DNA of 64,000 bases from Norana najaformis. Its lineage: Eukaryota > Annelida > Clitellata > Crassiclitellata > Hormogastridae. Every line of letters begins with the position of its first letter. Within the stretch, counting starts at the first letter, position 1. Below the pieces are notes generated by a model, which was not told the origin of the DNA, did not search any database, and saw nothing but the letters and a program-made list of their open reading frames with translations. The stretch is from NCBI GenBank assembly GCA_964023275.1, contig OZ029916.1:28983087-29047086 (forward strand), given 5' to 3'. Of the stretch, positions 7,614 through 60,438 are shown in pieces. A program made the translations under genes and the position numbers.

Positions 7614-10600
7614 CTATACTGACCTCTTTCGATGACCTTTTATCCGACATTTCATCGTCAGAACAACTCCACATACAGCCACAATTATGCATAGTACTAC
7701 CCCTACTGTAACGCCTGTAATTAGCGCATCGTTCCGATCGTTGTCTGTTGCGGCATCTGAAGAGCCTGCTGTAACAGTTATACAAACAAATACAGGACAG
7801 GAATCATATCGTCTAAGTATCAAATAAAACAGTGGAAATAGTGAACATATGTGATCACATGCCAAGCCTGAAACTTTTATTGTATGACGCCGTGGATTTA
7901 TGTAAGTATGAGTGAAATAATAGACTAAGTATCTGAAAACGTAAAAAGTTTTCAAAGGCGCTGAAACATGGCAATGCAACAGCTCTAAACAGCTGCCATT
8001 TGAGATAAGCTGAGAATGTCTGGAGCATTTTATGATAAATAGGCTAATATATTAGTTATTACAATGAACTGGCAACTTGGAACAGCTGTTAAAATTTACT
8101 AATGCATGAGAAAACTCAAACATCACCATATACAATTTTCTTAAATGTGCGCTTAGAAATGGTTGCTATATGGTATGGAGGCCTAAACACACCTTGAGTC
8201 GTCAATTCCACAACAAGAGGTGTAACTGTGCAGGAATGGTCTCGCAGCATACACGTTGCTTGGCATCTGTATTGTCCACTTTTGTTTGTTGTTAACGTCT
8301 CACTGTTAATCACAACACTAGTGTCTTCGTGGATCCACTGGTAACTACACTGTTCGCTGCTGTTGGCTCTGCAGTCAACGGTTACTGTTTTGCGATGGTC
8401 CATAGTCACCGACTGAGAAGATCCAAAGGCATCTACAAAAGTTGGCAAAAGCACGCCTGTGATCCTTGCATAACTGAAGAAAATTTGGTTAGATTTCCCT
8501 TATCACAGATGAATTTACAGCCGTCTGACTTTAAGATTTGTTCACTGTGCCCATTAAAAAGATATTTTTATCTGAAAATATGTTAAAGACTAAGGCGTCG
8601 ACCGCTGGTTTTTAATAATTACGATAAAAGAAATTGTTTTGGGGCATAACGTAAAATCTAATTGAAATGTGCTTCCGGTGGCCTGCATTCCACATATGAA
8701 GGCATAATATACTCAACTGTTTCTGTGAATAGACTATAATTAGTTGCTAAAAATGTTGCATGTAGAAACAGATCCTACACGCTACATAAACTGACAACAT
8801 TTGAGATCTTACACATCGCTGTTGCGTTAACCATGGCCGAAATATGCGAGACAGATGTGCGACAGACTATTGGATGAGAATCATCAAGCGGCCATTTTGT
8901 TGTCAGCCACATACTATAAGTGACACTCTGCGGTAGTAGCTCTGTTACTTCCGAGGGGGACATTATAAGAACAGTGTCAAAGCACTCGATTTTTGGGGAG
9001 AGATTTCCGGTGAACCCAACCGTACAAGACACCTCAAAATCCTGCGATGTTCGTTCGTCGCAAAAACTAACAACATCTGTGTTGCATTGAGGATTTGAAT
9101 CTGAAAAGAGAAGTGAACAGAATATATAAAAATTCATTCAACTCTATTCTTATTTCAAGTGGCATAAATAAACCTGGAAAGTCAAGAGAGAGAGAGAGAC
9201 AGAGACAAAGAGGCAGAGACAGAGACAGAGAGACAGAGAAGCAAGAAAGGACACCTATTGTGCTATATATTGTTAATTCTATTATGTCCAAAAGTGGTTT
9301 TATGAATCGAAGTATTTTTTAATTTTATTTAATCTAACTTTCATTTTATTTTTCTTAGATAATTATTTTAACAACTGCCCCAACCATTTTATTGTATGCA
9401 GGTCACATTCGCTTGTCATGTTCTGATGAAGGTTACTTATTGACTTGCTAAATGACTCGTTGAATTGCTGACTGAGTGATTGACTGAGTAAATGACTGAG
9501 TGACTGAGTGACAGACTCGCTCGCTTGCTCTTTCACTTAGTAGTAAACTAAAGCATCAGAAGTGAAATTTTTCAGTAGAATTAGTGGCGTAATGGCTTAA
9601 TAACTTAAGGATAGCAAAAGAGGTCATACAAATATTTACTACTAGAAGATTGTCGGTTGTTAGATATGTCGATAATCTAACAAAATCTAATGACTTACTA
9701 TAGCGCCGTTATCATAATGCCCAATCATAACAACAACAATAATATAGCTATAATAATAATAATAACAACAACAAAGAATGTTAGCAAAATTTTTCAAGTG
9801 TAGAGAAGTTATGACCTTTCTTACTTGTCCCATTTTAAAAGTGTGGATCAACCACTAACCTTCATCCTGAAAACCCTCATGACGCTCTTGCATGTGAGTC
9901 AGTTCTTTTGTCCGTTTACTAAGTTATTTACTCAATCTGTTGATGAATGACTGGACTTTGAAGATTAAGAATGTGTTTGTTACAAACCAGTCGTTACCTA
10001 TTACAATTAATTCCGCTTCCGCTTGTTCTCCATGTCCCACCATGTCCATGCACCGGTAGTTGCCGGCGTCCTCTTTTCGGACCGATGGTATCACGAGGTT
10101 GTATCTGCCCGTAGCATTGTCCCTGTCCATTTGTAACCTCCGGCTGTAGGGTAGGACCAGAACGCCGCTGAAGAAGACGTAATGCCTGGACGTTGATCCC
10201 ACTGCGGCATGGTCCCAAAGGATGTAGAACAACTTAGTTGGACCCTCTGCCCGACCACAGCCTCGAGGTTGACTGGTTTCATCGTCAGTGATCCGTCTTT
10301 CAAAGAAAAAAGCTTGTACAATAACAGCAATATTATTGTTGATAATAATAACACTGGCCAACAGAAAAATTTTTTTTTCTTGTTGCCTTCGGTTTTAGAC
10401 CTGTTCTTGGGGTAATTTTGGGCGCTGATTCAGAAAATGTCATTGGATTGAGTGCATCAGGTCTAGTTTCTGAGATATCGTCGATTTTGTAAAGAAAACC
10501 CAGTCCACTCTTTAAACGATGTCTTTGGCAAAACTAAAATGTCATAATAAGCTTTATTTATGGCTAATTATAATTCTTGCTGATTTATATAATGCCTACA

Positions 10601-59500: not shown

Positions 59501-60438
59501 CTGCCTGCCTGCCTGCCTGCCTGCCTGCCTGCCTGCCTGCCTGCCTGCCTGCCTGCCTGCCTGTTCTCTCTCTCTCTCTCTTCCCATTTCTCCTTATCTG
59601 CATCCTCCATATTGCAACCTATTTTGTTTTCGTATTGTTCACCAGATAACCTATGGATATCCTACAGCAGAACCGTGGATACTCTATCAATATCATAGAC
59701 GCCTCAGGCCTATATAATTTAGGCTTGTTGCAATTACTTTACATTATTCCCGAACCAGCGTTTCATGTCGGCCAAATCGCCACTTACTGTACTTGGTGGA
59801 TCAGACCGCAGGACTGATGCTAAATGTCTCGTATGTCATATCTAACTTTAGTGGAACTTACAACGCACTCATTTGCGCAGCTAACGATCTAATGCTAATA
59901 TAATAAAATAATAATAATATTTAAAATAATAATAATAATAATAATAATAATAATAATAATAAGTAATGCAAATGATAATATGAAAATATGAAAAGGTATT
60001 CCAAAAATGGCGCCAAAACTTTATGATTTATTTATTGAAGGTATTTGTGTTTACAATTATAATTCTAATTTTATAAATTTACAATTTTACATACTGAAGC
60101 TGCGTTTTATGTTAGAAACTCAAATGACAGGAACTTGTAAATCTTCGTCCAACAAAGCCGGCGTTCAACCACCTGAATTATACGAAACCATCTCGAAAAT
60201 GCCAGGTGCCCCAAAATTTGTGTCAAGTCAATGTGCCACGGTTTTTGGAACGCCACCTGAGCAGGAATTCAACTATGAGGATGTGCAGTCATGGGCAACG
60301 ACACATCTGCATCTCTACAGTCACTTGACTCTAACTAACGAAGCAGAATATGGCGTAACGAACACTGCACACGGTGGTTTCAATGCCCCCAATCTAGGTT
60401 CACCAGTGTACGAAGAAATTATGGCAGATGAAAGTTGA
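53590..60438 (+). CDS. Gene F: Ig-superfamily receptor with YEEI tail (leader not found)
   Basis: Exons found: V domain 53590-53940, constant-like domain 54356-54697, membrane 58584-58712 and tail 60116-60438, all phase 1. V has AVLRGNRAELRCRPNSTS and DAGLYTC. The constant domain has MHCTLGYRGNWAPVIEW and a C-terminal IPDYNYNWTLQLVV stalk, with a strong GAAT|GTAAGT donor, unlike the GC site in D and E. The helix is LTLIIIAVCGAGLIIAAFIATAVII. The tail has ELYETI, NYEDV, HLYSHL, EYGVT and PVYEEI and keeps every YxxL/I/V-type motif of gene E. It gains a five-residue insertion (SSSNK) near its start and loses one Tyr (TTYLH to TTHLH). The membrane intron is long (3.9 kb) and LINE-bearing. The missing leader leaves it uncertain whether F is a full gene or has lost its 5' end. 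Confidence 0.7.
55100..55500 (-). mobile_element. Decayed CR1-like LINE fragment
   Basis: The minus-strand frame contains YMRETLHWFPVEKRIKFRIL, matching the LHWLPVxxRIxFKIL block of CR1/L2 LINEs, with the following residues degraded. Located in the constant-to-membrane intron of gene F. The 114-codon frame here is this remnant. Confidence 0.65.
58089..58205. repeat. 40-bp tandem repeat, three copies
   Basis: Unit starting 'ggcaagtcctaaattttatt'. Block 1 has a single copy at about 46580, so expansion happened after the block duplication. Confidence 0.9.
58920..59580. repeat. Cryptic C/T-rich DNA with (GCCT)n core
   Basis: Imperfect 'cctgcctccc' and 'tccctccc' DNA with a pure (GCCT)n core at about 59414-59561 and a (CT)n end. 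Long frames on both strands (Leu/Pro/Ala/Cys repeats, or Ala/Gly/Arg/Gln repeats) arise because the tetranucleotide lacks stops; none is a gene. Confidence 0.95.
59901..59962. repeat. (ATA)n microsatellite
   Basis: 'aataataataataataata' run upstream of the gene F tail exon; a shorter equivalent lies in block 1 near 47195-47235. Confidence 0.9.

Follow-up and report, generated by a model that had tools for sequence, protein, structure and literature searches.

The window analysed here, a stretch of 64,000 nucleotides (contig C4, positions 28983087-29047086) from a 608-Mb animal genome assembled in 17 contigs, contains part of a multi-copy locus of immunoglobulin superfamily (IgSF) receptor genes of two types, one with short tails and one with tyrosine tails. 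The genes are built of immunoglobulin (Ig) domain exons, fall into two clades, differ in their tails and recur in a head-to-head layout along the contig. With confidence evenly balanced, the locus is read as a lineage-specific recognition family of two clades, in which one class (class 2) would signal and the other (class 3) would be its non-signalling partner. An earlier note on this DNA had proposed the two-type locus, which the analysis supports; its description of the cluster was confirmed in part, and its interpretation likewise found partial support.

Exon models were built from splice sites, signal peptides and transmembrane (TM) stretches and were then joined by script. Domains were mapped over 264 kb of C4, including 200 kb fetched around the window. 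Twenty-four genes were counted by hand between 28787 and 29067 kb (~280 kb), each of the double V-C1 units (28876 and 28972) and the solitary V at 28870 counting as one gene; the 46 kb at 28797-28843 kb were unread and left out of the count. Gene names such as 28854 and 28892 are kb positions on C4.

Receptor genes and their two classes

Class 3 genes have the order V-C1-C2-TM with a short tail (A and B in the window), and class 2 genes the order V-C1-TM with a tyrosine-rich tail (C, E and F). The tree of V domains separates two clades with support of 100/99. The class 3 clade comprises A, B, 28854, 28909, 28955, 29066, four genes of contig C2, and P0001 and P0002, two relatives returned by protein searches and assigned to class 3 by V clade; C-G and all remaining V domains make up the class 2 clade. 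Members of the class 3 clade carry a C2 domain wherever they were read far enough, the gene at 45.9 Mb on contig C2 having been read only to C1. P0002 (361 amino acids, longest contig 1951 bases) encodes V-C1-C2-TM and a short tail in a single frame. Class 2 is not invariably two-domain, since a third Ig-like domain is weakly matched in 28902 (E = 1.2e-3) and 28947 (E = 1.9e-4).

A and B lie on the minus strand. In A, a leader (signal peptide) exon (14322-14415) is followed by a V exon (9998-10296), a C1 exon without a Pfam match (8813-9100), a C2 Ig-like exon (8193-8432; Ig_3 E = 1.4e-4, below cut-off) and a TM exon with a basic tail of 12 residues (7614-7765). The model breaks in the frameshifted V exon, which is open only in two overlapping frames (10187-10294 and 9999-10196); the damage reflects a pseudogene, a damaged allele or an assembly error. 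That the short tail of A is genuine is supported by an AATAAA starting 7 bases past the stop and by both the stop position and this AATAAA being conserved in the paralogue 28892. B has a leader exon (32645-32696), a V exon (31645-31965; V-set E = 3e-10), a C1 exon without a Pfam match (30992-31285), a C2 Ig-like exon (30066-30302; Ig_2 E = 0.0095, below cut-off) and a TM exon with a 12-residue tail (26419-26555). The short tail of B is less certain than that of A, since the exon can also be read in a +1 frame that is open up to a good donor. A common tail exon was searched for 3' of A and B and none was found, the significant A-B match there being a dispersed repeat. The exons of the two minus-strand V-C-C-TM genes with tails of about 12 residues, as first described, were thus recovered, but with a frameshift in the V exon of A and an ambiguous tail in B.

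The remaining genes are on the plus strand and each contain V and C1 exons, with a TM exon and tyrosine tail in C, E and F, in agreement with the earlier note. C consists of a leader exon (16808-16856; weak donor score, 0.9), a V exon (18350-18682; V-set E = 4.3e-9), a C1 exon with an Ig-like fold predicted by a structure model (19057-19374), a TM exon (20604-20687) and a tail exon (21457-21602, the best placement) carrying TEYMEM, SRYEQV and VLYASI, including two strict immunoreceptor tyrosine-based inhibitory motifs (ITIMs). By eye this tail exon resembles that of a downstream gene near 29059332. An open reading frame (ORF) at 20888-21277, with no Pfam match, is a less likely candidate for the tail of C and was set aside. 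D has a leader exon (36959-37019), a V exon (38231-38578; V-set E = 8.4e-9) and a C1 exon (39939-40277), and exon modelling found neither TM nor tail before the leader of E. E consists of a leader exon (41284-41344), a V exon (42150-42497, from domain mapping and the spliced model), a C1 exon (43849-44187), a TM exon (46976-47104) and a tail exon with five Yxx[ILVM] motifs (47398-47699). The C1 exons of D and E lack a usable GT donor and end at a phase-1 GC donor (G/GCAAGT), by eye at about the place where F has GT. F has a V exon (53590-53940; V-set E = 1.6e-7), a C1 exon (54356-54697), a TM exon (58584-58712) and a tail exon with four Yxx[ILVM] motifs (60116-60438); its model is open from the V exon onward, and no leader exon was found by signal-peptide and splice-site modelling. 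A C1 exon remnant without V was mapped farther along the plus strand (61601-61801). The spliced models of B (346 amino acids), C (309) and E (392) are open throughout with one terminal stop, and all modelled ectodomain junctions are phase 1, as previously noted. D and E were not counted as independent evidence because their V-C1 block is a 95.8% identical duplicate (leader block 83%).

Two reverse transcriptase fragments lie in introns of these genes, one at 44752-45381 between the C1 and TM exons of E (RVT_1 E = 3e-16) and one at 29014-29487 between the C2 and TM exons of B (RVT_1 E = 0.0064, below cut-off).

Of the V exons, those of B, C, D and F pass the Pfam V-set cut-off, a check that the earlier note had suggested; the V exon of E was outside that scan. 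The C2 domain of P0002 matches Ig_2 above cut-off at residues 228-300. For C1, an Ig fold is predicted by structure models and weak Foldseek matches, none of which reached E<=0.001 for a C exon alone. The V and C exons are classified as IgSF domains, in the case of C1 as a model-based prediction. In the PDB, the family profile matches the polymeric Ig receptor best by sequence (E = 4.4e-20); the likeness is confined to the V domain and the architecture differs. A GxG near the end of the class 3 V domain was considered as J-like and rejected, the spacing to the last strand being too long by eye. No class 3 relatives were found in viral or prokaryotic contigs with the six peptide patterns of P0002.

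For class 3, nine genomic TM exons were selected on hydrophobicity and splice score; their tails are 7-28 residues long. By eye, no charged residue is present in eight of these TM segments, nor in those of P0001 and P0002; the sole exception is 28892, which has a Glu. A single TM helix (314-349) is predicted in P0002, and one TM exon was modelled in A and in B. Tails were found for 11 of the 15 counted class 2 genes; none of their own was seen for D and 28870, and 28787 and 28845 stand at the ends of read stretches. In the 11 tails, 44 Yxx[ILVM] motifs stand against 9.8 expected from shuffling, and nine strict ITIMs against 2.3, an excess that is inflated, and to that extent counts against a signalling class, because eight of the 11 tails were picked by a tyrosine-motif scan. 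The tails are supported by the resemblance of copies to one another (28867/28902, 28975/28879, C/G and E/F). The pattern [SIVL]xYxx[ILV] occurs in six of them (C, 28867, 28902, 28946, 28975 and 28879), and strict ITIMs are absent from the tails of E, F, G, 28928 and 28968. The tails of E and F carry YETI, YEDV, YSHL and YEEI.

Head-to-head layout

In the window A is divergent from C and B from D, with start codons 2.4 kb (14415 and 16808) and 4.3 kb (32696 and 36959) apart, the spacers reported earlier. The former count of two head-to-head arrangements was too low: eight divergent junctions were identified in the ~280 kb of C4, six of them class 3/class 2, two class 2/class 2 and none class 3/class 3. 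The A/C-type order, for which a search elsewhere in the genome had been proposed, therefore recurs on C4 beyond the window. Of the seven class 3 genes that have a V exon (the V fragment 28982 and the V-less 28892 left out), six lie opposite a class 2 gene. One pair was predicted before its sequence was fetched and was then found, a minus-strand class 2 V (28787687-28787935) facing a class 3 match at 28799844.

The genome search with P0002 gave 645 candidates, 113 of which were scored: 11 on C4, four on C16, three on C8, one on C1 and, by subtraction, the remaining 94 on contig C2, some with internal stops. Five genes were looked at on contig C2, where 30 kb of one array comprises two class 3 genes on the same strand. 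Among the matches listed, dense P0002-like V matches on contig C2 lie on the minus strand at 1.3-2.6 and 10.3-10.8 Mb and on the plus strand at 10.9-12.8 Mb.

Several observations weigh against a functional pairing of the two classes. When class labels were shuffled with strands kept, a mean of 3.90 mixed junctions was obtained against the six observed (P = 0.12), so that mixed junctions are not significantly above chance and the layout is recurrent but no proven rule. The predicted pair may be in decay, since the class 3 match at 28799844 (classed by its P0002 match only) has one internal stop and the class 2 gene facing it is without the usual second Ig cysteine. The class 3 gene 29066 has no partner within the next 40 kb, class 2 was not seen in the 30 kb read on contig C2, and both pairs inside the window have a defective member, A being broken and D incomplete. 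Two of the eight divergent pairs are class 2/class 2, and so is the unit for which joint copying was seen (at 28869-28883 kb and again at 28969-28980 kb, alike except for ~3.4 kb); the duplicated two-gene module of the earlier note thus holds for one divergent unit, but not for a class 3/class 2 pair. Long sharing of the intergenic DNA between facing genes was found only between these two class 2/class 2 units, other matching intergenic pairs sharing 49-667 bases, possible repeats included.

If both classes were interspersed in one IgSF cluster of mixed orientation, facing neighbours could arise from chance and local inversion, with no joint function. The shuffling result, the class 2/class 2 pairs and the class 3 genes standing alone on contig C2 are consistent with such a cluster, which accounts less readily for the lack of class 3/class 3 junctions among the eight, for the six of seven V-bearing class 3 genes that face class 2 and for the prediction that held. 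It is a contender, at clearly below even confidence.

Proposed function and known systems

In a recognition family of a signalling and a non-signalling class, ligand binding would lead to phosphorylation of the class 2 Yxx[ILVM] tyrosines and to recruitment of SH2 proteins, and class 2 members with strict ITIMs, such as C, would be inhibitory. Class 3, which has no clear signalling motif, would supply a second ectodomain, preferably as a co-receptor beside class 2 on one cell, because divergent neighbours can share control. The locus would evolve through birth and death. We infer partner binding, co-expression, the sign of the signal and an immune or allorecognition role.

The ectodomains are under purifying selection, with ratios of nonsynonymous to synonymous rates (dN/dS) of <=0.54 in 16 of 16 chosen comparisons; D and E differ in C1 with a dN/dS of 0.55, from three changes. 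The tails of 28867 and 28902 have dN 0.038 and dS 0.132. Values that speak against a conserved signalling part are the dN/dS of 0.74 for the E/F tail and 0.96 for the E/F TM, and the 11 nonsynonymous and two synonymous changes between the tails of 28975 and 28879. Ectodomains and tails have separate histories, since V and C1 of E and F (dS 0.67 and 1.3) are older than TM and tail (~0.1). D and E differ at 5/645 sites in exons and 58/2147 outside (P = 0.002), and the tail exons of E and F at 28/300 aligned sites compared with 78/460 in the flanks (P = 0.004); no difference from the surroundings was found for the E/F TM exons (P = 0.74) or for the D/E leader (P = 0.33).

Class 3 proteins could also be trans ligands or adhesion partners of class 2, derived from one ancestor in the manner of CD200/CD200R. 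The short versus signalling tails and the common V-C1 ancestry would fit, and among PDB entries the C1 profile comes closest to CD200, at a non-significant E = 0.075; ligand and receptor, however, need no divergent transcription from a single locus, and this possibility is rated as rather unlikely. Neural or developmental adhesion molecules are improbable: adhesion families, too, can have phase-1 Ig exons and tyrosine tails, but many copies, broken copies and conversion-like patches such as that of D and E are unusual in conserved developmental adhesion genes.

The co-receptor arrangement is favoured, by analogy, to work like the FF/FcoR system of Botryllus schlosseri without being a member of it. 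In the part of the source available (PMC12065747), FF and FcoR are linked multigene families in which a receptor without signalling motifs adjoins a partner with a V-type Ig domain, one haplotype having a single partner type only. According to the same part, fester has Ig and sushi domains and three TM helices, and FcoR (520-610 amino acids) combines a V and a sushi domain with two Ig domains of C2 type and has tails with an ITIM, a hemITAM (ITAM: immunoreceptor tyrosine-based activation motif) or a core-tyrosine motif (PMC12065747). As far as described there, a tail-less gene beside a tyrosine-tailed gene is common to both systems, here at six of eight divergent junctions (P = 0.12 against shuffling); here, however, one TM and 309-392 amino acids are found, and both types share V-C1 ancestry. 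No sushi match was obtained in 10 window ORFs (E up to 1), nor in either P0001 or P0002 or in three other receptor exons (E up to 0.1). Because sushi domains and three TM helices are absent, the family is not a member of Botryllus FF/FcoR. In a literature search with most subscription papers beyond its coverage, the layout was not described outside Botryllus.

The Alr cluster of Hydractinia is likewise an IgSF cluster with V-set-type domains, with 41 members (PMC11999971), and candidate allorecognition genes bear ITAM or ITIM (PMC12065747); compared by description only, the accessible text does not mention head-to-head short-tail and tyrosine-tail classes.

Vertebrate KIR, LILR, CEACAM, CD300 and FcRL, in the portions of the descriptions available, resemble the present genes in being IgSF genes that cluster and duplicate, and in combining ITIM tails with relatives that have short tails. 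In vertebrate paired receptors the ligand-binding regions of the partners are very similar, as far as described, whereas here the two classes are separate clades (V domains of B and E, 34% amino acid identity). Activating short-tail members of such pairs have a charged TM residue, for an adaptor; eight of nine short-tail TM segments here are uncharged. Distant V domains and uncharged TM segments thus leave the activating/inhibitory pairing suggested in the earlier note unsupported in its canonical form.

If the class 3/class 2 pairs cooperate, they would be a second, sushi-free case in an invertebrate of linked non-signalling and signalling Ig receptors, and would allow a test of whether paired-chain, ITIM-type recognition arose repeatedly. 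The large class 3 arrays would be a germline receptor repertoire in which polymorphism and self/non-self or pathogen recognition could be tested. It is possible, though unlikely, that a two-chain recognition system evolved independently here, in which a germline repertoire of perhaps more than 100 short-tailed V-C1-C2 receptors, encoded in the arrays of contig C2, shares few tyrosine-tailed V-C1 signalling chains and the head-to-head pairs of C4 are the ancestral units; invertebrates would then have a second counterpart of Botryllus FF/FcoR and of vertebrate natural killer receptor complexes.

Repeats and other observations

Two 1.17-kb copies in the window (10349-11518 and 62439-63608) are 98.7% identical, and an inverted copy is located at C4 28937240-28938411; they represent a dispersed element of recent origin, and its ORF matches zf-AD weakly, below cut-off. 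A short dispersed repeat of 75-94% identity occurs on both strands of the window at 1386-1451, 2233-2412, 13417-13777, 16885-17088, 25179-25248, 27719-27932 and 33801-34166. Four degraded COX1 matches were found on C15 (412069-412726 and 570464-571281), with no intact COX1 among the matches listed for the 17 contigs. By eye, ATA at a Met site and AGA at a Ser site in these pieces speak against the echinoderm code, whereas AAA at an Asn site agrees with it and AGG-AGA at a Gly-Gly site agrees with the ascidian code; the encoded protein looks annelid-like. The codon signals on the phylum are mixed, and the marine habitat assumed in the earlier note is not borne out. A 4.6-kb tandem array with self-match offsets of ~38 bases is located at C4:29083575-29088208.
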